From: Fibrobacter sp.
GTDB lineage: Bacteria; Fibrobacterota; Fibrobacteria; Fibrobacterales; Fibrobacteraceae
DNA length: 35,032 nt
Direction: 5' to 3'
Assembly: GCA_024689485.1 (NCBI GenBank)
Contig: JAILDK010000099.1
Span: 1 to 35,032 of the forward strand
Part shown: piece by piece, positions 7,789-27,329 of the stretch
Layout: every line of letters starts with the position of its first letter
Numbering within the stretch: the stretch's first letter is position 1
Notes under the pieces: generated by a model
Told to the model about the DNA's origin: nothing
Databases searched by the model: none
The model's input: only the letters and a program-made list of their open reading frames with translations
Position numbers and translations under genes: made by a program

Positions 7789-10700
7789 CTAGTTGAACCT
7801 CAACATCAAAGCGATTTCAAACGAAAGAATCTGTTCCGTGTGAGCCGTTTCATCATCGAGCTTTTCATGGATCTGGCGGTATTCGATGTAAGCGCTCATG
7901 CTCGCCATTTTGTTGAACTGGTAGCCGGCGCTCGGGCGAATATACCATTCATGAACACGCGACGGCACCGTGCGATCGGTCTTTTCGAGTTTCGGGAAGT
8001 ACACGGTGTAATCTTTGCCGTCAATCGTCCACTTCTTGTAAACGCCATCCGTTCCGCTTTCCTTATCCTTCGGGTCGTAACCGCTTTCCGGTTCATAGGT
8101 ATCACGGATCGTCTTCGTGTATTCGTAGCCAGCGGTAAAGCGCAGGTCAATATCGTTCTTGAGCTTAAAGTACCACTTCCAGAACTGGAATCCGCGCTTC
8201 GTCTTGAGCGGGTAAGAAATCGTCAGGTCGTTACCCACGTTGTAGCCGTAATCCTTGTACAGCGCCGTGTGAATCCAAGGCGTGTAGAAGTATTCCGTCG
8301 TATCCGTCTCATCGACAACCGCATTCGGCCAGTTCGTCTGCGAAATCACTTCCATTTTCGGACGGCGGTCCGTGAATTCAAGCTTTAAGAAGGTGTTGTC
8401 TTCAATGCGAATGTTCTGCTGCGTGAGGAAGCTAATGCGGATAAGCGGATTAAAGTTCCATACCGTTGTCCAGGAATCTTCGGCGCTCTGGAAAGGCTTT
8501 ACAGAACGCGTGTAGGTGTAATCCACACGGTGCGTCGTACTCACGCTGCGGAAGCCGTTCAAGAAGCCGATGCGCTGCGAGAAGTTCGGAACCGTCACGC
8601 CCACGCCCCACTTCGGCCAGACAATCACCGAGTCCGTGTACAGCGGATATTCGCGGGACTGGCTAAAGCTCTGCTTCCACTGCATATCCGCGACAATGCC
8701 AATGCTCCAGATCGGAAGCGTAAGGCCCGTCGAAAGGTTCAAGGTTCGATCGACGCTGTGCGTAAAGTTACCCTGGTAAACGAGAGTATCCACATGCGAA
8801 TTGCGGTATTCCGCAAAGCCCGTATAGTCGTCGCGGTGATCAAGGCCCATGTCGCCCGAAACAATGTTCCAAAGTCCACGATTGCGGTAACCGTTACCGA
8901 TGCCCAAGCCGTACAAGTAATACTGCAGCGGCGTCACACCCTGTTCTTCGTACAACTGCGAAAGGGTAAAGTTTTCACCCACCGTCGAAAGGTCCACCGT
9001 CCAAGTCGCCTTCACATCGCGCCAGCGGAGTTTTTCAAAGAAGCTCTGCGCCGCATTCTTGTCGCCAAAGAGCTTCAAGAATTCCACCAGGCGGAACGCC
9101 GGGGCAAATTCAAAACGGTTCGTCTGGGAAATCGTCCAGTAATTCTTATCGACCGTCGTCGCATCGTAAAGATCGTATTCATCCGGGATCGTCTTCTGCT
9201 GCTTAAACGAAGACGTAAACGAGAACGTCATCGGAAGGAACGGAATGATCGCCGGGGAGAACGTCGTCTTGAACTGCTGCGTACGGGAACGTTCATTCTT
9301 CAAGATACCGTAAGAACGTCCGTATTCCCTGCGGCCCACGCTATCGACCTTGTAATAGACCGTGCTGTCGTACAAAATCTTGTACGTGCTCGGATCGTCC
9401 ATGTCGATGAGGGATGTATCGCCTTCGGCGCTCACGACCGCCACCGTATCGTACGGAATCACGACGACGCTATCCGGGGAAACGTAAATCTTGCGGTCGG
9501 TATGGTCAAAGTCAAAGATGTCATCCGAAGCGAACATGCCACCGTTTTGCGTCGTCCAGAAATTTTCCTTCGCAAAGTCTTCCTGGTCGCCACCGCCGAA
9601 CATGTCACGGGTAATGTTCAAGCTGTAGCTCGTCGTGAGGAACGGGAAAATATTCCAGCGGATATTCGCCTTGTGCGTCAAATCGATCGTATAAGTCGTC
9701 GTTTTGTCAACCTGCGGTTCCGTAAAGTCCGGATCGCGTTCCTGGTTCACGTAGCGGATATAGCTCAAATCAAAGAGGGTCAGGTCCACCGTCTGCGGCC
9801 ACGGTTCAAACGAAGCGTCGGCAAAGCTCTTTGCCCAGGCGGAATTTTTCAAGAAGTCGAACGGTTTATAATTGAAACGGTTGAACGTACCGAGGCTATA
9901 CTCGATGATCGTGTGGTAAGAATAGGTCGAGTCCGCGGCAGTCGTCGAACGGGATTCCGTTTCCGTGTAGCTGTAACTCCAAGCCGGACGTTCGAGGAAG
10001 ACCTGGGAAAGCACTTCCTTGATCGGGGTCGACTGCATCTTGTAATCTTTGCTGTAGCTAAAGCTGAAGCGTCTTGTGCGGCTAAAGGACTGGTAGCCCT
10101 GAGATTCCGCATCCGCGCGGAGCTCTTCTTCGTCGTCCGCATTTTCAACGACAAGCTTTCCATCCCAAACGTCCTTGGCAAAGTCGCCGAGGTTGTCGTG
10201 CGTCAGTTCAAGGTCATCGGTCGGCTTCAAGTACGGGCGTTCCGTGGTGCTGCTGTAGCCCACGCTCATCGGCATGTGGAAGCCTTCATCATCCGGCAAG
10301 AACTTGTTCCAGTTCACGCTTGCATCGGCCGCAAGGTCGAGCTGCGAAGCCGCATCCGAAAGCGCGGGCTTCGGAGAATTTCCCGTCGTCGAAAGCGTCG
10401 CAAAGTTTCCATCCTGGTAACGCGCCGAAGCCGACACAGAAAGGAAGTCCGCAAAGTTCGCCTGGCCCGCCGTTCTAAAGGCGTAGCCCCAATCGGTATC
10501 CATATCCGAAAGACGCAAGTCATCAATCCAGAATTCACCTTCCAAATCCGCAGGCGAAGCGTCATCGTCCGCAATAATCACAAAGCGGATCCAGTCCACG
10601 GAAGTCGTCGAAGGATTACCGACAAGCTTCAAGACTTCTTCACGGTCACCGCCGATCGAATCCACCACCGCTTCCAAATACGGCGGGCGACGTCCCTTCT

Positions 10701-13700
10701 TCAAATCCGAGAACGCAGAAAGCTTTTCTGCAAAGGCGTTCGCAAGCCAGTTTCTTTCGTGGCAGTCCGCTTCACGTTCCGCCGCCGTACAGTTGATCTT
10801 GACCGGTCTAAAGCTCCATTCGTAATAGTCCGTCGAACCGTCCAAAGAACCTTCACCGAACTGCAACGCAAATCGCACCGGCGTCTTCGAAGCTTCCGTC
10901 TCGTAATGGATTTCCATCTTCAACGTCTTGTACTTCGTCAGGTCCTTTTCGTCGGAATCGAAGACGCGCGTCGCTCCCACGGACTGTCCCGGAGAAAGGT
11001 TCTGGTACTTGAGCACAAGAGCCGTTTCCTTCAAAGCCGCATTCGTTTCCGCATCGCGTTCCGTCGCCGTGTTCGGGCTCTTGTAATAGGTTCCCGAATT
11101 TTCACGGTTGTTGAGCGTCGAAACGCTCAAGTAAGTCGTATCGGAACTCGACGTTTCCGCCGAGATTTCCACTTCGCTACCGTCCACGACTGCGGTCTGG
11201 GAATTGCCCGAAGACGTCGTCTTGAACTTGCTCGAAACATCGGAAGCTTCCCAAGAGTTGCCCATTACGCCGAGGTTCGCAATTTGCACCTTGGCTTCTG
11301 CGACACCGTTGTTGATCTTGCCCATCCAAAGTCTCGAGAACTGAGCCTGGGCGAGAATCGTCGCGTAGCTTTCACCGGTTGCCGAAACAATCGTATCGAA
11401 CTGATCGAGAGGAATCTTCCACTTGCGCCAGCCATTCTTGAGAGTTTCAAAATTCGCATCGTCTTCATCTGTCAAATCGATGCGGTAACGCACAAAGCTG
11501 ATGTCCGTGTCGAGAGATCCGTTCTTGTTGATGTCTTCCGTATCGTAAGCGCGTTCGCCCGAGTTGCCTTCCGTGCCGTTGATCGAAACCGGCGGATCGC
11601 TTTCGTCGTCGAGATCGTCGTCAAAATTATCACGGGCAATATCCGTATTCGTCGCATCGGAATTTGCACTGGTCTTGGTCGTGCTCACGCAGCCGTTCAT
11701 GCGGCAGTCCCAAATGGTGAGCGTTTCTTCCGAACCGGAAACACCGTCCAAGCCTTTATCGTGCAAGGCGGTCGTCGTGCCCAAATCGTTTTCACCGTCA
11801 TATTCTCCGTTCGGAGCTTCGCCGTTAATCGAAAGGTCTTCGCTCACAAGGCCCAAATCCAAATAGAGGCTTCCGACGTTACCACGGGCAACGACTTCCA
11901 CATACTTCATGTCGCTCAAGTCTTGGTAGTAGCTCGAGTTCGGGCGCATAATGCCGCCCCAGCTGTTGCCCGCCAAATTGTCGTTCGGACGAAGCGTCAT
12001 CTTGAGCACGGTCAAGCGCTGATTGTCCACATCGCTGTTGCCGACAGTCGGGTAAATGTTCTTGTACAGCACCGAGTTGTTGCTGTGCCAAATAAATTCA
12101 CCCTTGTGCTTGTAATCCTGATTTTCGATATACGTGCTCGGAACCGTATCCACACCGCCCGGAGGAGAAGCCGGATACCAGGAGAGGCGCGTCAGCGGAT
12201 ACACCAGTCCCGATTCGCTGGATTCAAAGTCTTCGAGGAGAGCCGTCTGATCGCTGCTCGTGTTCGCATTGTGATAGCTGCTTGCGAATTCCGTTTCAAA
12301 GCGCCAGTTCGAAGTCGCCTTCGTATCGATGCCCGGAATCATGTTCACAAGATCCGTCATCCACTGCGTCGTATCCTGCAAGCGCAGGTTCATGCCCCAG
12401 AGGAAGCTCGAATACGGTTCGCTGCCGAGCGTCGGCGTGCTCGCCGTGGTACTCTGGCTCTTGTAAAGCGCCGTGATACCGAAGAGAGAACCTTCGCCGA
12501 ATCCGTAGCGGGTCAGCGGAAGTTCCGCACGGGCGCCGAGCAAAACCTTGTTGTCGATTTCGAACAAAGGTTCGCATTCGAATTCGACCGTGATTTCCTT
12601 GTTCGGGTCAAGAGCCGTTTCGCTCAAAAGTTCAATTTGGCCAAGCTCGTAGTTCACATCGTAGTCCACGCCCCGCGTCAAGACTGTCGAGCCCGCCTTC
12701 AATTTTTCAGAACCTTCCGAAATATCCATACAGCTTCCGGAGTTCACCGAGTAACTCGAACTCGGATCGCGGACGCTGATCACCGAATTTCTTCTCTTAC
12801 CGACGCTTTCAAAGTAGAAGCGGTTCGTGAACTTCGTGCCCAGGTTCGAAACCGGAAGCGTATAAAGCTTTGCCATCGCTGCAGAAGAGTCCACGTTGCG
12901 GAAAGGTTCCAAGCAGTTTTCACGTGCACGTGCCGAAGAGTTCGCCCCCGAATACCACGACAGCGGACGGCAAGGCAGCCACATTTCACCCGTGTAAGAA
13001 CCGGAAGCGTCCTTCTTAAAGATCGTCGCATCGCCCGTGAGGATCGTATTCGTCGTCGTATCGACAAGACCGAGTGTCTTCAAATACGTTCCCGAAATCC
13101 CCGACTTGTTCTTGGCACGCAAGACAAAGCTCGAAGCGCTTTCGTCGGAAATGCCAATCGAATAAACGTTACGGAGCATCAACTTGTCAATATCCGTCAG
13201 TTCCGAAAGGGTCGCGTCCCATTGAATCAAAACCACTCGGGAACCATGCGTCACCGTCGAGCCAACGCGACCCGTTCCGTCATCGGACCAACTCGCCGCG
13301 ATGAGCGTATTCTTGGAAGCTCCGAGGACTTTCACAATACCCGTTTTCTTATCATACGAATAATCGCTCGAATCCATCGGCACCAACCGGTCCACCACCT
13401 TTTCGATAGGCGCACCGCTTGGAGGCGTATAGACAGCAGTCACCTTTTCCACCACGTTCGTCGTCGTATTGGTCGGAGCGCGTTTGTAAAGCTTTAAGCT
13501 CGTCGCCGTATAGCTCGAAGTGCTGCGACCCGCAAGTCCATTGCTGATGTAGTTGTCACGGGATTCATGGTTCAGGAAGTAGTAACGGTAAGCGATGAAT
13601 TGCTTATCCTGAATCTGGAATTCCGTCGTACTCGAACTTGCATTGATCGTGTACTTTTCCTGACTTCCACCGTCCTGCGAAGCGATTGTCGTAAGCCACC

Positions 13701-14568
13701 AGTCGCCGAGCTTCCATTCCGCCTTGATACCGAAAAGGCCCTTGTGGTTTTCCGAATAACCGGTGAGTTCCGTACCCGGCAAAGCGAGGGATGTCGTACC
13801 CGCTTCAATGCGCTGCAGAATGTAATCTTCGAATTCGCCCTTGTAAGATTCTTCGTAAACGACGCGGATCTGGTTCTTTGCCCCGAGACCGCTTTCCACG
13901 TTGTTCACTTCCACCGTAATGTACGGCCCAATCTTACCCTTCACCATAAAGCTCGGGTCATAGGAAAGCGTCGGGCTCGGGAACAGATTGTCCTTGGTGC
14001 TGCCCGGAGCGTCATCCTTTTCGCCGCGGCCCGAAAGACGAATATCCATCGTACCCTGCAGCATGAGCTTCGGCTTGTCAAAACCAAAATCCTTCATCCA
14101 GGAAGGCATGTTGATCGGAATATCGATATCGTAAAGCGTGCCGGATTCCGGTTCGGAGTATCCACCGCTGCTCTGGCCCGCAAACGAGTTGGTCCACAGG
14201 CGGTTAAAGCCCGCCGCATACATATCCGTCACATAGGTTGCGATTTCCGGATAGTTCGAAGACCAGAGTTCCATTGTGTCACGGCTCAGCGGATTCACGT
14301 AACTCTTCTTCACTTCCATTTCACGATTTTCAAAATCGATGTTGTGCTCGTACTTTTCGTTCCGAGGCGGCTTCATCAGCGAAGAGTTCTGGCCGACACC
14401 GTTTTTCGGCGCAATATCCGAAAGAGGCGTCACATTGGGAGGAAGCGGAATATATTGGACCGCGCTATTTGCGGAACTCGAAGAATTTTCGGATACAGAG
14501 GAATCCGCCGTCTCCTGTGCAGAAGACAGTGCTGCTAAAAGCGTAAAGACGGCTAAAAGCCTTTTCAT
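7789..14568 (-). CDS. sprA: SprA/Sov-type outer-membrane translocon of type IX secretion
   Basis: This 2259-residue protein begins with a signal peptide (MKRLLAVFTLLAALSSA, probable cleavage before QETAD). It has the features of SprA, the giant single-chain beta-barrel through which type IX secretion substrates cross the outer membrane. LFGIKAEWKLGDWWLTTIAS lies near residue 277, LTRGVDYDVNYELGQIELLS with EITVEFECEPLF near 630-665, FGEGSLFGITALYKS near 690, and the ALLEDFESSESG segment near 776. The second half is made of alternating aromatic/polar strands and the chain ends in EIALMLRFN, a barrel-type C-terminus. Length is close to the roughly 2400 residues of Flavobacterium SprA. Other type IX components (PorV, GldKLMN) are not in this window. 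Downstream, the CHR and thioesterase genes follow in the same direction. No strong Shine-Dalgarno is seen. Confidence 0.85.
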   Translation of the reverse strand: MKRLLAVFTLLAALSSAQETADSSVSENSSSSANSAVQYIPLPPNVTPLSDIAPKNGVGQNSSLMKPPRNEKYEHNIDFENREMEVKKSYVNPLSRDTMELWSSNYPEIATYVTDMYAAGFNRLWTNSFAGQSSGGYSEPESGTLYDIDIPINMPSWMKDFGFDKPKLMLQGTMDIRLSGRGEKDDAPGSTKDNLFPSPTLSYDPSFMVKGKIGPYITVEVNNVESGLGAKNQIRVVYEESYKGEFEDYILQRIEAGTTSLALPGTELTGYSENHKGLFGIKAEWKLGDWWLTTIASQDGGSQEKYTINASSSTTEFQIQDKQFIAYRYYFLNHESRDNYISNGLAGRSTSSYTATSLKLYKRAPTNTTTNVVEKVTAVYTPPSGAPIEKVVDRLVPMDSSDYSYDKKTGIVKVLGASKNTLIAASWSDDGTGRVGSTVTHGSRVVLIQWDATLSELTDIDKLMLRNVYSIGISDESASSFVLRAKNKSGISGTYLKTLGLVDTTTNTILTGDATIFKKDASGSYTGEMWLPCRPLSWYSGANSSARARENCLEPFRNVDSSAAMAKLYTLPVSNLGTKFTNRFYFESVGKRRNSVISVRDPSSSYSVNSGSCMDISEGSEKLKAGSTVLTRGVDYDVNYELGQIELLSETALDPNKEITVEFECEPLFEIDNKVLLGARAELPLTRYGFGEGSLFGITALYKSQSTTASTPTLGSEPYSSFLWGMNLRLQDTTQWMTDLVNMIPGIDTKATSNWRFETEFASSYHNANTSSDQTALLEDFESSESGLVYPLTRLSWYPASPPGGVDTVPSTYIENQDYKHKGEFIWHSNNSVLYKNIYPTVGNSDVDNQRLTVLKMTLRPNDNLAGNSWGGIMRPNSSYYQDLSDMKYVEVVARGNVGSLYLDLGLVSEDLSINGEAPNGEYDGENDLGTTTALHDKGLDGVSGSEETLTIWDCRMNGCVSTTKTSANSDATNTDIARDNFDDDLDDESDPPVSINGTEGNSGERAYDTEDINKNGSLDTDISFVRYRIDLTDEDDANFETLKNGWRKWKIPLDQFDTIVSATGESYATILAQAQFSRLWMGKINNGVAEAKVQIANLGVMGNSWEASDVSSKFKTTSSGNSQTAVVDGSEVEISAETSSSDTTYLSVSTLNNRENSGTYYKSPNTATERDAETNAALKETALVLKYQNLSPGQSVGATRVFDSDEKDLTKYKTLKMEIHYETEASKTPVRFALQFGEGSLDGSTDYYEWSFRPVKINCTAAEREADCHERNWLANAFAEKLSAFSDLKKGRRPPYLEAVVDSIGGDREEVLKLVGNPSTTSVDWIRFVIIADDDASPADLEGEFWIDDLRLSDMDTDWGYAFRTAGQANFADFLSVSASARYQDGNFATLSTTGNSPKPALSDAASQLDLAADASVNWNKFLPDDEGFHMPMSVGYSSTTERPYLKPTDDLELTHDNLGDFAKDVWDGKLVVENADDEEELRADAESQGYQSFSRTRRFSFSYSKDYKMQSTPIKEVLSQVFLERPAWSYSYTETESRSTTAADSTYSYHTIIEYSLGTFNRFNYKPFDFLKNSAWAKSFADASFEPWPQTVDLTLFDLSYIRYVNQERDPDFTEPQVDKTTTYTIDLTHKANIRWNIFPFLTTSYSLNITRDMFGGGDQEDFAKENFWTTQNGGMFASDDIFDFDHTDRKIYVSPDSVVVIPYDTVAVVSAEGDTSLIDMDDPSTYKILYDSTVYYKVDSVGRREYGRSYGILKNERSRTQQFKTTFSPAIIPFLPMTFSFTSSFKQQKTIPDEYDLYDATTVDKNYWTISQTNRFEFAPAFRLVEFLKLFGDKNAAQSFFEKLRWRDVKATWTVDLSTVGENFTLSQLYEEQGVTPLQYYLYGLGIGNGYRNRGLWNIVSGDMGLDHRDDYTGFAEYRNSHVDTLVYQGNFTHSVDRTLNLSTGLTLPIWSIGIVADMQWKQSFSQSREYPLYTDSVIVWPKWGVGVTVPNFSQRIGFLNGFRSVSTTHRVDYTYTRSVKPFQSAEDSWTTVWNFNPLIRISFLTQQNIRIEDNTFLKLEFTDRRPKMEVISQTNWPNAVVDETDTTEYFYTPWIHTALYKDYGYNVGNDLTISYPLKTKRGFQFWKWYFKLKNDIDLRFTAGYEYTKTIRDTYEPESGYDPKDKESGTDGVYKKWTIDGKDYTVYFPKLEKTDRTVPSRVHEWYIRPSAGYQFNKMASMSAYIEYRQIHEKLDDETAHTEQILSFEIALMLRFN

Positions 14569-14716: not shown

Positions 14717-14742
14717 AAAGGCCCGAATCGCTTCGGGCCTTT
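14717..14742 (-). terminator. Rho-independent terminator of the AIPR-family gene
   Basis: The 11-bp stem AAAGGCCCGAA / TTCGGGCCTTT has a 4-nt loop. On the minus strand it is followed by CTTTTT. It starts about 20 nt after the stop codon of the AIPR gene and insulates sprA from that transcript. Confidence 0.88.
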
Positions 14743-14763: not shown

Positions 14764-16641
14764 TTACTTGAGGAACATATCGATGTCGCCCAAGCACTTT
14801 TCCCAAGACTTATCCTTCGCAACCAGCATCTGCATGATCTTGTCGTAAGTCGCGGTAGTGCCGAATCCCTTCCAAAGACGGCGTTCGACATTTTCACCCG
14901 AATCCTTGTCGATCGTGGTGATGGTATCGTAGTAGTCCTTGTTATCCTTGAATTCGCCGACGAGAATCGACTTGAGATAATCGCTGTAGATGCGGGAAGC
15001 ATACTTGAGGAGCGAATCGTTGAAGTCGAGTTCGTTTGCCACGAGATATTCAAAGTCCTGGATCGGATTGCCGTAAACGAGCCAGTGGCGAAGAGCAATG
15101 GCCACGACCACGTCGCGCACGGCACTGCGGAACAGGAACTTGTCTTCCAAGCGGCCGTTCCACGTAATCTTCGTGAGCGGGTTACCGTCATTCGCTTCAA
15201 TCGACACGCCCTTACCCGGAACCACATTGCGGATCTTGATCGGGAGACGGGTCAAAAGCTGCCAAGCCTTCGTAAAGGCGATCGTCTTGCGGACGAAATC
15301 ACGTTCCTTGTCCGGTGCCACGCGGAGGAAGGCGCCGAAGCAGTGCTGATAAAGGCTTTCCTTATCGAAAATGCAGTCGCTCGAACGGCTTTCCGAAATT
15401 CGGCCATCCATCATAAAGAGCGTCTTTGCAAGTTCCGGGCGCATACGCACTTCAAGCTTACGGGTACGGGCTTTGAGGCGCACACCGTCCTTGTAAACGT
15501 AGGTGAAGCCTTCTTCCTGGTAACGCTGCCAAATGAAGAACTGCAAATCGTCTGCAGCACGGAGATGGTAGCTGAACACCGGGTTCTGACGGTTGTTCGC
15601 CATCGTCACCTGACGGAGGAAGGAGTCGGCTTCCGGATACGGAACCACGACCTTCACGAGCACGAACGGGTTCACCGGATTCTTGCTCTTCTTGAAGTAC
15701 TGTTCGTAAGTAAAGAGGGACTGGGCGCCGTTGATGATCTTCGGGCGTTCAATCTGCAAAACCTTCTTGCCATCGCGATCCTTCAAGCGCAGGTCATCGC
15801 CCGTGAGGGTCATACCGTTGTGGAGGAACGGAAAGTCGCTTGCGTCGTTTGCCTTTTCCATTTCCTGGAAGGCGTCGATCAAAGCGGCGTTCGTATGGGT
15901 CAAGTTACCGAGGTAAGTACGGATGTTGCTCGAAACGATCGCCATGTTGTGTTTCGTCTTGAGGCGCTTACCGAGGGTCTGGTGATAATCGAAAATCGTA
16001 CGGATCGGGCAGAAGCCGACAAAGAGTTCGCCGCTCTGGCTTGTCATGTGAAGCGGTTCGTCCTGCATCACGATGTCGAGCTTGTCGTCGTTATTGCGGA
16101 AATCCTTGGCGAGGTCATCGTGTTCGGCGCGGATTTCGAGCTTCGCGCGGATATCGGACTTCCAGATGTTGAGCTTGCGACGCATATCCTTCAAGGTGCG
16201 TTCCATTTCAGCATCGGTCACATAGCGACTGGAAAGCGTGCGGAGAACGGTAATTTCGAGGGTTTCCATGTACGGACGGCTAGCCGGCTGGTCTTCGTCC
16301 TCTTCCGGGGCGTCCATCTTGATGACATCCCACGGGTCCGCTTCTTCGCGGAGGGACATGAAGAACGGATTATCCGGATCGCTCGTGCGGAAGACAGCAA
16401 TCTGGAGCTGCTTCAGATCGTGGGTCAGGTTGTGCATGACCTTTTCGAGCGGGGTCGTTTCGTCGATGAAAATGAAAATTTCAAGGAAGCCCTGGGAATA
16501 CTGGAAGCCGTGGAAACAGCCTTCTTCATCTAAATTGAGGTGTCTCAACGCCTTAATGCGATCGGTCGGATCGTTCGGGTTCAAGCTGAGCAAACTGGCT
16601 ACGAATGAAAGTCTACGTTCTTGCGCTTTCGTTAATTCCAT
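14764..16641 (-). CDS. AIPR-family (abortive infection type) protein
   Basis: The 625-residue cytoplasmic protein matches the AIPR family (named for abortive-infection phage resistance). The core motifs appear in order: SSNIRTYLG (237-245), NAALIDAF (251-258), FPFLHNGMTLTGDDL (270-284), KIINGAQSLF (301-310) and VTMANNRQNPV (345-355). The N-terminal 200 residues, including an acidic stretch APEEDEDQ near 111-118, are less recognisable. The biochemical activity of AIPR proteins is not settled; in other genomes they occur beside Z1-type helicases, MORC/GHKL ATPases and DNA methylases in restriction-like clusters. None of those partners is present here. Base composition and codon use look like the neighbours, so recent transfer is not apparent. 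A GAGGA site precedes the ATG and a clean terminator follows. Family assignment is firm, the role open. Confidence 0.8.
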   Translation of the reverse strand: MELTKAQERRLSFVASLLSLNPNDPTDRIKALRHLNLDEEGCFHGFQYSQGFLEIFIFIDETTPLEKVMHNLTHDLKQLQIAVFRTSDPDNPFFMSLREEADPWDVIKMDAPEEDEDQPASRPYMETLEITVLRTLSSRYVTDAEMERTLKDMRRKLNIWKSDIRAKLEIRAEHDDLAKDFRNNDDKLDIVMQDEPLHMTSQSGELFVGFCPIRTIFDYHQTLGKRLKTKHNMAIVSSNIRTYLGNLTHTNAALIDAFQEMEKANDASDFPFLHNGMTLTGDDLRLKDRDGKKVLQIERPKIINGAQSLFTYEQYFKKSKNPVNPFVLVKVVVPYPEADSFLRQVTMANNRQNPVFSYHLRAADDLQFFIWQRYQEEGFTYVYKDGVRLKARTRKLEVRMRPELAKTLFMMDGRISESRSSDCIFDKESLYQHCFGAFLRVAPDKERDFVRKTIAFTKAWQLLTRLPIKIRNVVPGKGVSIEANDGNPLTKITWNGRLEDKFLFRSAVRDVVVAIALRHWLVYGNPIQDFEYLVANELDFNDSLLKYASRIYSDYLKSILVGEFKDNKDYYDTITTIDKDSGENVERRLWKGFGTTATYDKIMQMLVAKDKSWEKCLGDIDMFLK

Positions 16642-17044
16642 TTTATTCCTCTAATTAGCTCCTGATATGGAGTTTCTGATATCCATATACATAGATAATT
16701 AAAATATTACTTCTTTTCGAGCTTTTACACCAAAAAATCTTGTTTCAAAATTTTTACATCTATTTTTAGGGCCATTCCTATAAGCGCCCTCTCTTGTTTC
16801 TGAAACAAATGAAGCAGGTGCAAATCCCTCCGAAAATTCACTTTAGTCTAGAGCGGGCTCTAAACATTTTGACTAAAAGATAGAAAATTTGGCCCTCTAA
16901 AAAAAGACAAATTTCGTCAAAAATTTTCGACATTTTTTGGCGGATTTGACAAATCAGGCTTTTTTGCGACTGAAAGGGCCTTTTGGACGGCTGAACGGGG
17001 CCGATTTTTTTGGAATTCGCCGGGATTCTTTATAGTTTAAGAAT
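16642..17044. other. AT-rich intergenic region with several dyad symmetries
   Basis: No gene is seen in these 403 nt between the divergent AIPR and metallo-beta-lactamase-fold genes. The stretch is much richer in A and T than its flanks. It holds an odd-centred 15-nt palindrome TTGTTTCTGAAACAA (16794-16808) with a second TTGTTTC about 55 nt to its left. A nested inverted repeat has outer arms TTTAGTC (16842-16848) / GACTAAA (16871-16877) and inner arms TAGAGC/GCTCTA (16849-16862). A 13-nt palindrome GATTTGACAAATC lies at 16943-16955. These could be operators or RNA hairpins; nothing shows which. Confidence 0.6.
17033..17038 (+). promoter_or_regulatory. -10-like element placed for leaderless start of the MBL-fold gene
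   Basis: TAGTTT (overlapping TATAGT at 17031-17036) ends exactly 6 nt before the ATG at 17045, and there is no Shine-Dalgarno between. If used, transcription would start at or next to the A of the start codon. No clear -35 box is seen. Confidence 0.4.
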
Positions 17045-18136
17045 ATGAGATCTTTGCGATTGATTCCTGAACTCCTGACGGCACTCTGCATCCTCGCGAG
17101 TGCCGTTTCTTGTACTGGGAATTCCGCAAGCGCGGCCCTCCGGGAGCCACTCCCCCCGCACCACCTCCCCGACGGCCATTTTCGAAACATCGACACCTCC
17201 GTCGCCCCGATCCGCGACACCATGGAAGTGGATTCCCTTGTTCCCACCCACCGCACCGAGGTTTACCGCCTCCCGATCGTGCGCGGAAACGAAGAACTTT
17301 GGGCGGATTCCACCGCAAGCAGCGCCACTTGGATCGGACACGCCACCTACTACATCAAACTTCAGAACTTTGGAATCCTCGCAGACCCGATTTTTAGCGA
17401 CCGGGCTTCCCCCGTCCAGTTCCTTTTTGGCCCCAAGCGCGGAACGCCCCCGGGCCGCGACCTCGATTCCCTGCCCCAAGTGGACCTCGTCCTGATTTCG
17501 CACGACCATTACGACCATTTAGACCGCGGAAGCATCAAGGATATCCACAAAAAATGGCCCAAATGCGTCTTTGCGGTACCGCTCAAGGTCGGCGAAATTC
17601 TCGAAGACTGGGGAGTTCCCCGGTCGCAAATCATCGAACTTGACTGGTGGGAAGAGGCGACCGTCCAGAAGGTGCACCTGACCTTTGTCCCGGCTCACCA
17701 TACAAGCCGCCGGGGAGCCTTCTCTTCGAGCCGAAATTCCACGCTTTGGGGCGGCTGGATGATCGAATTTGGCGAAAAAAAGCTCTGGTTTGCAGGGGAT
17801 ATCGCCATGGGAGACGGTTCCTACTACAAGGCGATCGCCGAAAAGTTTGCCCCGGTTGACGTCGCCTTTTTGCCGATCGGCAGTTACAAGCCTTCGCGCT
17901 ATACCCGTGTGCACGTAAGTCCGCGGCAGGCCGCCCAGCTGCACCTGCTCGTCGGCTCCAAGCTGAGCCTTGCCATGCACTGGGGAACCTTCAGTATGGT
18001 GTATGAACGTTTAGAAGACCCACCCAAGGACCTCGCCCGGGCCAGAAAAGAGCTGGGCATTCCGGATTCGAGCTTCCAAGTGCCTCAATTTGGGGAGATC
18101 GTGCCTTTATTCATTCCAAATTGGACTAAATATTGA
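17045..18136 (+). CDS. Metallo-beta-lactamase-fold lipoprotein (NAPE-PLD/UlaG-like)
   Basis: The 363-residue protein starts with a hydrophobic signal ending in LASAVSC (C23), a plausible lipobox, so it is probably membrane-anchored in the periplasm. The metal-site motif SHDHYDHLD (near residues 157-165) is the HxHxDH signature. VPAHHTSRRG, WFAGDIAMGD and AMHWGTF supply the later histidines and the bridging aspartate. The arrangement, with DPIFSDRASPVQFLFGPKR before the HxHxDH motif, resembles NAPE-type phospholipase D and UlaG-like hydrolases. Phospholipid or another phosphodiester substrate is therefore possible but unproven. The gene has no Shine-Dalgarno and a -10-like hexamer 6 nt upstream. 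The leucine-rich-repeat gene follows after 82 nt. Confidence 0.85.
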   Translation: MRSLRLIPELLTALCILASAVSCTGNSASAALREPLPPHHLPDGHFRNIDTSVAPIRDTMEVDSLVPTHRTEVYRLPIVRGNEELWADSTASSATWIGHATYYIKLQNFGILADPIFSDRASPVQFLFGPKRGTPPGRDLDSLPQVDLVLISHDHYDHLDRGSIKDIHKKWPKCVFAVPLKVGEILEDWGVPRSQIIELDWWEEATVQKVHLTFVPAHHTSRRGAFSSSRNSTLWGGWMIEFGEKKLWFAGDIAMGDGSYYKAIAEKFAPVDVAFLPIGSYKPSRYTRVHVSPRQAAQLHLLVGSKLSLAMHWGTFSMVYERLEDPPKDLARARKELGIPDSSFQVPQFGEIVPLFIPNWTKY

Positions 18137-18218: not shown

Positions 18219-18971
18219 ATGAACATTCTCGAAGTAATTGCAAAAGCGAAAGCTGAAAAGGCGAAGAAGTTGGATTTGTCAGACATGCACCTGCGTCTGC
18301 TCCCGCAGCAATTGTTCGAGCTCGAAGACTTGGAAGAACTCGTCCTCGACCAGAACTTGCTCGTAGAACTTCCCGATGAAATCGGACGTCTCCAGAACTT
18401 GAAGAGCCTCTCGGTCAGCGAAAACGACCTGATGGAACTTCCGGAAACCGTCGCCGAGCTTTCGAAGCTCGAAAACCTCTACCTCGGCTACAACAGCCTT
18501 TCCGAAATTCCGAAGGCGCTCGGCAAGCTCACCCACCTGAAGAAGGTGAACATCGCCCGTAACCAGCTCCTCGACATTCCGGAATCCATCGGCAACTGGA
18601 CCGAAGTCGAAAAGCTTTCCCTGCATGACAACATGCTCGCGAAAATACCGGAATCGATCGGCAACATGAAGGGCCTTGAAAAGCTCTACCTCGACAACAA
18701 CGAACTTTCGACTCTTCCGGCAAGCCTCGGCAACCTCGAAAACCTCGAAGTGCTGATGGTCTCCGGAAACAGCCTCGTTTCCATTCCGACAGCCCTCGGC
18801 AACTTGAAGAAGCTGCACGAACTCGTGCTCGATGAAAACGAACTGGATTCCATTCCGGAAGAACTCGCCGAATGTGATTCCCTGAAGTCGCTTTCCCTCG
18901 TCAACAACCCGCTTTCCGGCTCCCTGCCGAAAGCACTCGTTACAAAACAAGGTCTTCAAATCGATTCGTAA
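18219..18971 (+). CDS. Leucine-rich repeat protein
   Basis: The 250-residue protein is almost entirely built of about nine or ten 23-residue leucine-rich repeats, with units such as LENLYLGYNSLSEIPKALGK and LEKLYLDNNELSTLPASLGN. These follow the LxxLxLxxNxLxxLPxxlgx consensus. A short helical cap (ILEVIAKAKAEKAKK) precedes them. There is no signal peptide, so it is probably cytoplasmic. LRR arcs bind protein partners, and no enzymatic domain is attached. GGAG lies 8 nt upstream of the ATG, and a loose TTGACC...TATCAT pair (18163-18195, 21-nt spacing) may be its promoter. The S41 protease gene starts 1 nt after its stop codon, so the two are co-expressed. Confidence 0.9.
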   Translation: MNILEVIAKAKAEKAKKLDLSDMHLRLLPQQLFELEDLEELVLDQNLLVELPDEIGRLQNLKSLSVSENDLMELPETVAELSKLENLYLGYNSLSEIPKALGKLTHLKKVNIARNQLLDIPESIGNWTEVEKLSLHDNMLAKIPESIGNMKGLEKLYLDNNELSTLPASLGNLENLEVLMVSGNSLVSIPTALGNLKKLHELVLDENELDSIPEELAECDSLKSLSLVNNPLSGSLPKALVTKQGLQIDS

Positions 18972-18972
18972 T

Positions 18973-20328
18973 ATGCACATTTCTCAAAAACTTCTCCCCG
19001 TTGTTTTTAGCGCCGCGCTTGCGGCGTCTTTTTTAGGATGTTCTTCCGACACCGTTTCCCATGTGGAAGACACATCCGGAGCAAGCGATGAGCTCAAAGA
19101 AACTTACAGCATGCTCTATTACTACTACTATCTCGCCGACACGGAACTCGGCGAACTGAGCACTTACGTAGACAATCCGTTGAACGTTTACATCAACGAC
19201 ACCTACGCCGATGTCGCGGACGTCATCACCATGTTCTACGCGATGAGCGATAAGCTGACCCGCTACTTCCCGAGCGCTTTTTACGAAAGCCTTGTGAAAC
19301 AGCTGACCGGGTCCGATGTCGAAAACAAATCCTTCGGTATGGAAGTGGATTCGAGCCTTGTCGTGAAATACGTTTACCGGGAAGGTCCGGCGGTTTCTGC
19401 AGGCATCGAAAAGCGCGACCAGATTCTTGCCGTGGACGGAAACGCGCTTGAAACTTTGAGCGAACTCGACAGCTATCTGGAATCGGTTGAAAATCGAGAT
19501 TCCTTCCTGTTCGCCCTGGAACGGGACGGTCTCACCTATGAAGTTTCCATGACGCGTGCCGAGCTGAACGTGCCGACCGTTTACGTCGATACCCTCAGCG
19601 ACATTCCCATTATCCGTGTGACGGAATTTACGAACACCACCAACGGCTATGAAGACGAAGGGACGCTTCAAGAATTCAAGGACGCCTTGGAAGCGACAGA
19701 CGGAGCGAGCTCCACGATTCTCGACTTGCGCGGAAACGGTGGCGGTTACGTTTCGCTCTGCACCCAGATGGCTGGGGAACTTTTAAGCGACAACGACACC
19801 ATCATCTACGAAAGATCCTGGGAACCGGAACACAATCGCCGCAGCTATAGCTCGACGGGCTACCTGGCAAGCGGTGACGGCATCGGTAAAGGACGTTACT
19901 ATGTTTTGATGCTCGACTCGAACAGTGCAAGCTGTACCGAAATTTTTGCGGCCGCATTGACCGCGAACCTCAAGACGCCAATCGTGGGAACGAACAGTTT
20001 CGGCAAGGGCATTGGACAGCTTTACCTGACCACCGAAACAAAGGGCATTTGCGGCATTACCTCGGTCCTTTTCTACGACAAGGACGGTTACGCCTACCAC
20101 ACCTACGGTTTTGTTCCGGACTTCTACGAACCCGATAGCCTTGAAGCGCTGAACAAAGCGGTGGAACTTGCAAAGGCAGGTTCTTACCAAAGAACGGAAG
20201 GTTACAGTTCCGAAGTGCAACCGTACTGGGCTTCGCCAAAGACTCTCGGCAAAAAGTCCATTTCGATTGATCCGGAAGAATATCTGCAAGACGCTTTGCG
20301 CGGCCTTGCGATTGTGGACTTCAAATAA
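18973..20328 (+). CDS. S41-family PDZ serine protease lipoprotein (CtpA/Tsp-like)
   Basis: The 451-residue lipoprotein (signal ending AASFLGC, acylated C23) has a PDZ domain at about 118-195. An S41 protease domain follows at about 205-390. The Ser-Lys dyad is intact: S320 in DSNSASCTEIFAAAL and K345 in NSFGKGIGQ, 25 residues apart as in E. coli Tsp. DLRGNGGGYV (251-260) is the conserved substrate-binding strand. Such proteases trim or degrade envelope proteins from their C-termini. The ATG is 1 nt after the LRR stop codon and has no Shine-Dalgarno of its own, so it depends on translational coupling. Its stop codon directly abuts that of the convergent M23 gene. Confidence 0.92.
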   Translation: MHISQKLLPVVFSAALAASFLGCSSDTVSHVEDTSGASDELKETYSMLYYYYYLADTELGELSTYVDNPLNVYINDTYADVADVITMFYAMSDKLTRYFPSAFYESLVKQLTGSDVENKSFGMEVDSSLVVKYVYREGPAVSAGIEKRDQILAVDGNALETLSELDSYLESVENRDSFLFALERDGLTYEVSMTRAELNVPTVYVDTLSDIPIIRVTEFTNTTNGYEDEGTLQEFKDALEATDGASSTILDLRGNGGGYVSLCTQMAGELLSDNDTIIYERSWEPEHNRRSYSSTGYLASGDGIGKGRYYVLMLDSNSASCTEIFAAALTANLKTPIVGTNSFGKGIGQLYLTTETKGICGITSVLFYDKDGYAYHTYGFVPDFYEPDSLEALNKAVELAKAGSYQRTEGYSSEVQPYWASPKTLGKKSISIDPEEYLQDALRGLAIVDFK

Positions 20329-25496: not shown

Positions 25497-27329
25497 TTAT
25501 TCTACCGTCACACTCTTTGCCAAGTTACGCGGCTGATCGACATCATTTCCGCGGAGCACAGCAATGTGGTAAGCCAAAAGTTGAAGCGGGACGCAAGTGA
25601 TGAGCGGCATGAGCATCGGATTTACCTTCGGCACATAAATGACGTCATCTGCGTATTCCGAAAGTTCCGTGCAATCTTCTGTCGTCACCGCAATGATGCG
25701 GCCACCACGAGCCTTGATTTCGCGCACGTTCGAAAGCACCTTGTCAAAGAGGCTGTCCTTCGGAGCGATCACGACAACCGGCATGTTTTCATCGATCAAA
25801 GCGATCGGGCCGTGCTTCATTTCGGCAGCCGGGTAACCTTCCGCATGGATGTAGCTGATTTCCTTGAGCTTCAAGGCGCCTTCCATCGCGACCGGGTAGT
25901 TGTAATGGCGGCCGAGGTAAAGGAAGTTGTGCGCGTCCACATACTTCTTCGCAATTTCACGGATCTTGTCCGAAAGTTTGAGCGTTTCTTCGACCAGTTC
26001 CGGAATCTTCGCAATCGCATGGGCGAATTCAATTCCCTGTTCCGCCGACACGCGACGTTCGCGTCCGAGCAAAAGAGCGATCATCGCAAGGACAGTCACC
26101 TGCGAAGAGAAAGCCTTGGTACTCGCCACACCGATTTCCGGACCCGCGTGCAGGTAAACGCCACCGTTGCTTTCACGCGCGATCGTCGAACCGACCGCAT
26201 TGCAAATGCCGAGCACCGTTGCGCCCTTCGTCTGCGCTTCGCGAAGTGCGGCAAGCGTATCCGCCGTTTCGCCAGACTGGGAAATCACAAAGACCAAAGT
26301 TCCCGGCTTGATGATCGGATTGCGGTAGCGGAATTCCGAAGCATATTCCACTTCAACAGGAACGCCGGCGAGATCTTCGATCAAATATTCGCCGACCATG
26401 CCCGCGTAATAACTGGTACCGCAAGCGGTGATGATGATACGGTTCAGGCTGCGCAATTCAAGACGGTTCGCGTCGAGACCGGCAAGCTTTGCAGAGCCAT
26501 CGGCAAAGAGCAGGCGCCCGCGCATCGTGTTGCGCAGAGCTTCCGGCTGTTCAAAGATTTCCTTGAGCATGTAGTGATCGAAGCCGCCCTTGCTCGCCGC
26601 GTCCGCGTCGAATTCGACTTCTTCCACATTGCGGTTCACCGTGTGACTCGAAACCGTCATGATTTCATAGCCGGTGCGTTTTGCAACGACCACATCGTCA
26701 TCGTTCAAATAGACGACCTTCTGCGTGTAATCGACAATCGCCGTCACATCGCTCGCGAGGAAGTATTCCCCTTCGCTACCGAGGCCCAAAACAAGCGGAC
26801 TTCCGCGACGTGCGCCAATCATCGTATCCGGTTCATCGGCACAGAGAACAGCCAGGCCGAACGTGCCTTCGAGCTTGTTCAATGCAGCCAAGACAGCCGA
26901 CTTGAAATCGCCCTTGTAAAGCTTGGCGATCAAATGAGCGACGACTTCCGTATCCGTTTCGGACTTGAATTCGACGCCTTCGGATTCGAGCTTGTTCTTG
27001 ATCTGGACGTAGTTTTCGATGATGCCGTTGTGCACCACCATGAACTTGCCGTCAAAGCTGACCTGCGGGTGAGCGTTCGCTTCGGAAGGCACACCGTGCG
27101 TTGCCCAACGGGTATGCGCAATGCCGATGTTTGCAAAAAGAGGATGTTCCTTCAGCTTCTTTTCGAGTTCGACGATTTTACCCGTCGCCTTTTCGAGTTC
27201 AAGCGTTTTGTTCGGATGCGCGACGGCGACTCCCGAGGAGTCGTATCCACGATATTCCAAACGTTTCAGTCCGCTGACGAGAACGCTGACCGCGTCCCGG
27301 CTTCCGATGTAGCCAACGATTCCGCACAT
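25497..27329 (-). CDS. glmS: Glutamine--fructose-6-phosphate aminotransferase (isomerizing)
   Basis: The 610-residue enzyme makes glucosamine-6-phosphate from fructose-6-phosphate and glutamine, the entry step to UDP-GlcNAc for peptidoglycan and lipopolysaccharide. MCGIVGYIGSRDAV provides the N-terminal nucleophile C2. The glutaminase domain covers about 1-240. Two SIS sugar-isomerase domains follow (about 290-430 and 460-600), with TACGTSYYAG and SQSGETADTLAAL as phosphate-binding segments and DQPRNLAKSVTVE as the conserved C-terminus. It lies 12 nt after glmM and 1 nt before scpA. No glmS ribozyme-like leader is possible in such a short spacer. Confidence 0.97.
   Translation of the reverse strand: MCGIVGYIGSRDAVSVLVSGLKRLEYRGYDSSGVAVAHPNKTLELEKATGKIVELEKKLKEHPLFANIGIAHTRWATHGVPSEANAHPQVSFDGKFMVVHNGIIENYVQIKNKLESEGVEFKSETDTEVVAHLIAKLYKGDFKSAVLAALNKLEGTFGLAVLCADEPDTMIGARRGSPLVLGLGSEGEYFLASDVTAIVDYTQKVVYLNDDDVVVAKRTGYEIMTVSSHTVNRNVEEVEFDADAASKGGFDHYMLKEIFEQPEALRNTMRGRLLFADGSAKLAGLDANRLELRSLNRIIITACGTSYYAGMVGEYLIEDLAGVPVEVEYASEFRYRNPIIKPGTLVFVISQSGETADTLAALREAQTKGATVLGICNAVGSTIARESNGGVYLHAGPEIGVASTKAFSSQVTVLAMIALLLGRERRVSAEQGIEFAHAIAKIPELVEETLKLSDKIREIAKKYVDAHNFLYLGRHYNYPVAMEGALKLKEISYIHAEGYPAAEMKHGPIALIDENMPVVVIAPKDSLFDKVLSNVREIKARGGRIIAVTTEDCTELSEYADDVIYVPKVNPMLMPLITCVPLQLLAYHIAVLRGNDVDQPRNLAKSVTVE

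Follow-up and report, generated by a model that had tools for sequence, protein, structure and literature searches.

A nearly fixed, vertically inherited AIPR-family gene of Fibrobacteraceae, possibly domesticated from a defence protein

What does an AIPR-family gene do when it stands by itself among the housekeeping genes of a bacterial chromosome? Such a gene lies near the middle of the stretch of Fibrobacter sp. DNA analysed here (35,032 nucleotides, hereafter the window). The preliminary description of the locus had offered two possibilities, an undescribed single-gene defence system and a domesticated host factor; our results fit the second better than the first. We tentatively suggest that a defence-derived AIPR/ParB-like nucleotide switch was domesticated and may now serve Fibrobacteraceae as a core factor of nucleic-acid maintenance or expression control.

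The gene, as read from the window, is a minus-strand open reading frame with an ATG start coding for 625 amino acids (Table 1). It is more than a chance reading frame, since it is kept in 107 of the 111 Fibrobacteraceae genomes. Its assignment to the AIPR family stands: residues 238-385 match PF10592 (E 6.2e-19, 69.2 bits against a curated cut-off of 25), and the protein also matches PADLOC AbiU (E 3.1e-20) and the PHROG_1841 family 'Abi alpha-like' (E 2e-19). PF10592 was matched in all 59 orthologues, and the window's own genome (98% complete) has a single match to this profile, the gene described here, which we call the core AIPR. The match covers positions 3-150 of the 308 in the profile, against positions 1-307 in a canonical AIPR of the same phylum (locus L134), and the second half of the domain may have diverged. 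The Pfam scan found no AIPR_N domain (PF22879) in the core protein, and a PDB search with its single sequence matched no solved structure. The N-terminal region had been called unusually long, which comparison does not bear out: the PF10592 match starts at residue 238 here and at residues 234, 240, 240 and 274 in four canonical AIPRs of the family.

Table 1. Positions in the window of the core AIPR gene, its protein segments and its main neighbours.
Feature	Positions	Strand	Basis
Core AIPR-family gene (625 aa), outside any operon, with a terminator of its own	14764..16641	-	ORF and profile searches
Residues 1-125: alpha/beta part at the N-terminus, then a variable acidic linker (105-125)	16267..16641	-	Predicted fold, conservation
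Residues 126-194: another alpha/beta stretch of lower conservation, 16% invariant	16060..16266	-	Model, 59 orthologues
Residues 195-360: AIPR core domain, predicted ParB/Srx-like, 50-56% invariant	15562..16059	-	Profiles, models, 59 orthologues
Residues 304-307: NGAQ, AIPR signature, predicted nucleotide-binding turn	15721..15732	-	DndB/GmrSD_N alignments
Residues 349-352: NNRQ, second AIPR signature	15586..15597	-	No variation at N350 or Q352 among core and viral AIPRs
Residues 361-440: most invariant stretch, 59%	15322..15561	-	59 orthologues
Residues 441-625: helical C-terminal domain, model mostly high-confidence	14767..15321	-	Some resemblance to SspE C-terminal domain
Terminator-like hairpin, 11 pairs, then CTTTTTG	14717..14742	-	Hairpin scan
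sprA-like gene, downstream neighbour kept in many genomes	7789..14568	-	
Leucine-rich-repeat (LRR) gene, most constant divergent neighbour, 16/20 loci	18219..18971	+	

The composition of the gene is like that of its surroundings, as first described, with a GC content of 0.47-0.54 over the gene and its flanks. A terminator-like hairpin does lie downstream, where a terminator had been reported, yet the region holds four such hairpin matches against a mean of 3.7 in shuffled sequences, a number at the level of chance. On the other side lies the spacer first described as dyad-rich (16642-17044); aligned upstream regions from 16 genomes share no conserved block except a GAGGA-like ribosome-binding site in most of them. 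The rest of the window is housekeeping in character: LytB, a Kdo-transferase, ABC, SBF and chromate transporters, SprA, a metallo-beta-lactamase-fold protein, the LRR protein, S41, M23 and FKBP proteins, a zinc peptidase, ScpA, a phosphoglucomutase-family protein, an ABC-F-like protein and an AIRS protein. It also encodes, at 25497-27329, a protein that we take from its sequence to be GlmS and that has no match in PADLOC. The gene is solitary, as had been claimed, in that Pfam and PADLOC scans of the other window genes revealed no restriction, methylase or helicase partner; the PADLOC matches of the ABC and cNMP-binding proteins concern generic ATPase or cyclic-nucleotide domains. None of the neighbours in the window points to a pathway. 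The metallo-beta-lactamase-fold gene between the AIPR and LRR genes (17045-18136, plus strand) occurs in only two of 20 loci, both of the same genus (L032 and L033), and looks like a genus-specific insertion into a conserved block.

These 20 core AIPR loci were each read over up to 20 kb. The neighbourhood with the divergent LRR gene is conserved in 16 of them, and sprA lies within the stretch read in 12, some stretches ending early. The four Fibrimonas-type loci (L042-L045) have neighbours that differ from those of the other 16. In two of them these are again housekeeping genes: SecA and SurE in L042, while L043 has genes for a polyprenyl synthetase and for an HD phosphohydrolase. A second AIPR with a fuller PF10592 match is present in 14 of the 111 Fibrobacteraceae genomes, and we read 16 canonical loci of this kind, 14 from Fibrobacteraceae and two from elsewhere in the phylum, with a Pfam check of L134 and L140. 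Homologues of MORC/GHKL, Z1 and DUF4420 flank the AIPR gene in six of the 16 (L132-L135, L144 and L145), five of these six with a C5 methylase match, and the AIPR gene of L140 adjoins HsdM and HsdS; over the sequence read, the remaining loci have no gene of these kinds. MORC, Z1, DUF4420, methylase and HsdM/HsdS genes were found near none of the 20 core AIPRs. The solitary state of the gene is by itself unremarkable, because several accessory AIPRs of Fibrobacteraceae also lack a MORC, Z1, Dcm, HsdM or HsdS partner in the stretch read.

Some of the canonical loci deserve mention in their own right. The accessory AIPRs of L136-L139, L141, L143 and L147, around which the sequence read contains no match to MORC, Z1, a methylase or HsdM/S, are possible candidates for single-gene defence. 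Two more genes follow the MORC-Z1-DUF4420-AIPR-methylase cluster in three loci (L134:10134-13356, L135:10364-13741 and L145:10571-14070); judged by eye, one resembles a further GHKL ATPase and the other a response regulator. Proteins with a GmrSD_N (DUF262) domain are common in Fibrobacteraceae, with several in each of 44 of 61 genomes (loci L249-L278) and none in the window's own genome.

The distribution of the core AIPR is close to universal within the family. It was matched in 53 of the 56 Fibrobacteraceae genomes that are at least 90% complete and at most 5% contaminated, and its identity to the query is 79-99% over seven genera and 51-58% in the Fibrimonas-type genera. Six of the 107 matches are partial or in two pieces (G007, G034, G078, G080, G081 and G086). 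In G081, the gene lies in two frames of one contig (C8:92203-94078) that meet near residue 325, which may reflect a sequencing error or a broken gene. The core AIPR was missed in four genomes, two of which, G071 (80% complete) and G077 (99% complete), are also without the LRR gene that is constant elsewhere. True loss in G077 was considered but seems less likely: the contig with the FKBP, M23 and S41 genes stops about 580 bp beyond S41, just short of the place where LRR and AIPR are expected, so that an assembly gap is the likely cause. The absences in G002 and G104, which belong to separate genera, look real. Both genomes have retained the LRR gene, surrounded by other genes and with no AIPR, and the core AIPR thus appears dispensable in the wider family.

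Beyond the family, the gene is hard to find. In 56 other Fibrobacterota genomes we detected no orthologue and only four weak matches of 28-32% identity. Two core peptide patterns, run against the genomes of 84,980 named species, retrieved 86 relatives; all 80 of those listed bear the name of Fibrobacter, of Fibrobacteres, Fibrobacteria or Fibrobacterales, or of Fibrimonas, and they include F. intestinalis ATCC 43854 with 96% identity to the core AIPR. A tblastn search of phages and plasmids with the core AIPR gave no match. The core alignment produced 42 pattern matches in viral contigs, none of them a relative, and one accessory AIPR used in the same way found none, whereas the alignment of accessory AIPRs retrieved 138 relatives, 80 of which were kept and served only as distant AIPRs.

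The core AIPR also changes slowly. It is less diverged than sprA, GlmS, LRR, FKBP and M23 in 329 of 337 pairwise genome comparisons, being the more diverged gene in 7 of 66 pairs against sprA, 1 of 45 against GlmS and none of 105, 66 and 55 against LRR, FKBP and M23, respectively. Its distances correlate with those of the neighbouring genes (r 0.85-0.93), as expected under vertical descent. Compared with the F. intestinalis-type locus L033, it has a dN/dS of 0.018, the lowest among the seven of ten genes for which the ratio was computable, at a dS near saturation (2.1). Against L032 its dN/dS is 0.034, and that of GlmS is lower (0.023, over 103 codons). The core AIPR is therefore a near-fixed, vertically inherited gene under strong purifying selection. 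Within the same block, the slowest gene adjoins the fastest, that of the S41 peptidase (18973-20328, plus strand), whose product is 50% identical to that of L033 and 27-48% identical to those of other genera.

In Fibrobacteraceae, gut bacteria that digest fibre, this pattern suggests recruitment either for a routine cell function or for permanent defence. The preliminary description held that universal syntenic conservation with no association to defence loci would favour a housekeeping role. Synteny is near-universal, not universal, and with its lack of defence neighbours and a conservation above that of GlmS it makes the evidence lean towards housekeeping.

What kind of function this might be depends on the architecture of the protein. 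The share of residues invariant in 59 orthologues is 31% in residues 1-104, 0% in the linker (0 of 21 residues at 105-125), 16% in 126-194, 50-59% in 195-440 and 30% in 441-625. The N-terminal part has a weak DUF695-like match at residues 32-94 (E 0.0047, below the cut-off), which recurs at E <= 0.01 in 40 of the 59 orthologues, at best with 2.2e-4. Structure comparison of this part gave matches that are mutually unrelated (Zip2:Spo16, a SpoIIAB complex, MinC and Mglu, at Z 5-6), and no fold was adopted from them. A profile and structure check of the N-terminus, as first proposed, yielded the faint DUF695-like signal and a predicted alpha/beta make-up. About residues 392-407, inside the most invariant stretch, runs a basic segment, RTRKLExRMRPELxKT, that is specific to the core AIPR lineage.

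The likeness of the protein to AIPR/AbiU consists of significant profile matches and a common length class, and hhalign aligns core with accessory AIPRs over 170 columns (E 6e-16). The likeness extends to invariant R, F, NG, NGxQ and NxQ residues, which across 23 core and 42 viral AIPRs are R241, F270, N275, G276, N304, G305, Q307, N350 and Q352. With every signature residue of AIPR retained, the site is probably active. The core protein differs from AIPR/AbiU in matching only the first half of PF10592 and in having no AIPR_N, a tree of 63 AIPRs sets its lineage apart on a separate, long stem, and its gene is fixed and vertical, not patchy, without RM, Z1 or MORC neighbours. Two kinds of catalytic domain were sought and rejected. 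An HNH nuclease has no place in an alignment of 59 orthologues without an invariant His beyond residue 359. The HEPN motif is RX4-6H, and a HEPN toxin is likewise discounted, as the orthologues share no such invariant pair, the N-terminus is predicted to be alpha/beta and a HEPN match in Pfam is absent. AIPR proteins are described in PMC3506569 as carrying an N-terminal HEPN domain.

Two AlphaFold models, one built from 59 orthologues (pLDDT 66) and one from 65 rows including viral AIPRs (pLDDT 72), were compared with known folds. Foldseek returned nothing from the PDB at E <= 0.001 for either model; among BFVD viral models it matched an AIPR protein (E 8e-11) and a protein with a GmrSD N-terminal domain (E 8e-4). 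VIA-align placed residues 196-355, approximately, of the second model on ParB-N and Noc chains (Z 4.6-5.8 over 95-101 residues, rmsd 3.5-3.9), among them ParB-N 5k5d at Z 5.8, and at Z 5.0 with the first model, all of these and the following Z values being below 8, the range that the tool calls common and below the level it regards as safe. Residues 354-625 fell on the C-terminal domain of SspE (Z 5.5; again with the first model, Z 4.2, 124 residues, rmsd 4.0), and residues 208-611 on a DndBCDE-DndI entry (Z 4.7, rmsd 7.9). Z alone is weak evidence, because the unrelated chains found for the N-terminal part score alike.

Sequence profiles were compared as well. The DndB profile scored 22.4, higher than all 200 column-permuted controls, among which the top score was 18.0, with NGAQ aligned on DGQH, and its hhalign E-value was 0.056. 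An alignment of accessory AIPRs alone reached E 0.31 against DndB with no motif match, a caution against over-reading the link. GmrSD_N scored 14.5, which 12 of 200 permuted controls attained, and aligned IINGAQSLFT on IIDGQQRLTT; ParB, at 14.3, was equalled by 59 of 200 controls and is not significant. On these profiles and models, residues 195-360 are predicted, with modest significance, to have a ParB/DndB/GmrSD-like fold, and NGAQ is likely to be a nucleotide-binding turn.

None of these systems is simply reproduced in the core AIPR. In the alignment with DndB (PF14072), the regulator of phosphorothioation, NNRQNPV falls on an INTNQKGV stretch in addition to the NGAQ correspondence, but the letters of DGQHR are missing, with N304 in place of D and S308 in place of R. 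The core AIPR is not a dnd component, since its own genome has no PF14072 match; its neighbours are housekeeping genes. Against DUF262-type proteins (GmrSD_N, SspE and DndI), model residues 200-611 and 354-625 align with chains of SspE and DndI at Z 4.4-5.5, whereas the C-terminal domain has no conserved HNH. The CTPase domain of ParB-N/Noc is aligned structurally in both models (5k5d), although its sequence profile is not significant and the letters of the GERR motif are absent. In the published work, a DndB-like protein binds ATP and GTP (PMC12704722), the N-terminal domain of DndB is placed in AbiU1/AIPR (PMC3506569), and the GmrS and DGQHR domains are related to ParB/Srx (PMC4619093).

The explanation that we prefer, with a probability of about one half, is that an AIPR gene, acquired once and passed on vertically, came to serve the host as a nucleotide-gated factor that binds nucleic acid. 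The acquisition would have taken place in the ancestor of most Fibrobacteraceae, with vertical inheritance thereafter and recruitment to a constitutive cytosolic role. Single acquisition, vertical descent, constraint and retained signatures fit such a recruitment for a constitutive function. The functional part of this proposal (nucleotide binding, nucleic-acid binding and a housekeeping role) is what we infer, and a nucleotide-gated nucleic-acid binder seems the most likely mechanism in view of the predicted fold and the invariant basic segment. The intact core at 195-360 would act as a ParB/DndB/GmrSD-like nucleotide-binding domain, in which an NTP at the NGAQ/NNRQ site would set the conformation of the basic 361-440 stretch and of the helical C-terminal domain. 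These in turn would hold host nucleic acid or nucleoprotein, and the N-terminal alpha/beta part might bind a partner. The core AIPR would then behave like DndB or ParB, not like a suicide toxin.

The main competitor, which we consider unlikely but worth serious attention, is a fixed single-gene innate defence: a silent AIPR enzyme that, upon a conserved phage trigger, would act on nucleotides or nucleic acid and stop the infection, with unremitting exposure to phages in the rumen and gut maintaining the gene. Its AIPR/AbiU relatives act in defence and occur in defence clusters of Fibrobacteraceae too, the core protein itself matches PADLOC AbiU and the PHROG family, its signature residues are complete, and purifying selection is expected of a fixed defence gene as well. 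A report on F. succinogenes UWB7 co-cultured with an anaerobic fungus (PMC8406330) may also be counted on this side if the gene concerned is the core AIPR, for which Ga0136279_0760 is the candidate. Near-fixation, vertical inheritance and a conservation above that of GlmS are nevertheless unusual for defence genes, which are patchy in this family too, as the accessory AIPR illustrates, and the core form did not turn up in the phages, plasmids and viral contigs searched.

Less probable still is a housekeeping nuclease of RNA or DNA processing, whose AIPR domain would cut or trim host nucleic acid while the DUF695-like N-terminus binds a partner. Nucleases are reported among the relatives of ParB/Srx (PMC10853773), and the invariance of the basic stretch and the recurrence of the DUF695-like match would suit this role, but the protein lacks the HNH and HEPN signatures discussed above and no solved structure matched its sequence. 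That the gene is a mere passenger, a defence gene acquired long ago and retained by chance without any special function, agrees with its absence from two genera but is scarcely credible given strong purifying selection over nine genera and in more than one chromosomal context.

In the literature on AIPR, AbiU, PF10592 and the core genome and defence of Fibrobacter, as far as the texts covered extend, we found neither a description of the core AIPR in Fibrobacter nor an established biochemical activity for AIPR proteins. Being fixed, single-copy and slow to evolve, the core AIPR makes that activity accessible to study, in a domain without a toxic cluster around it. A rumen survey based on PADLOC (PMC11834463) reports Fibrobacterota as one of the phyla in which genomes with a defence system are most frequent. 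The match of the core AIPR to PADLOC AbiU may bear on surveys that count PADLOC matches as defence, and this survey is a candidate case. If our preferred reading of recruitment as a host factor is true, a defence gene would have turned into a core cellular gene, and an 'abortive infection' family would provide a whole bacterial family with a constitutive function.
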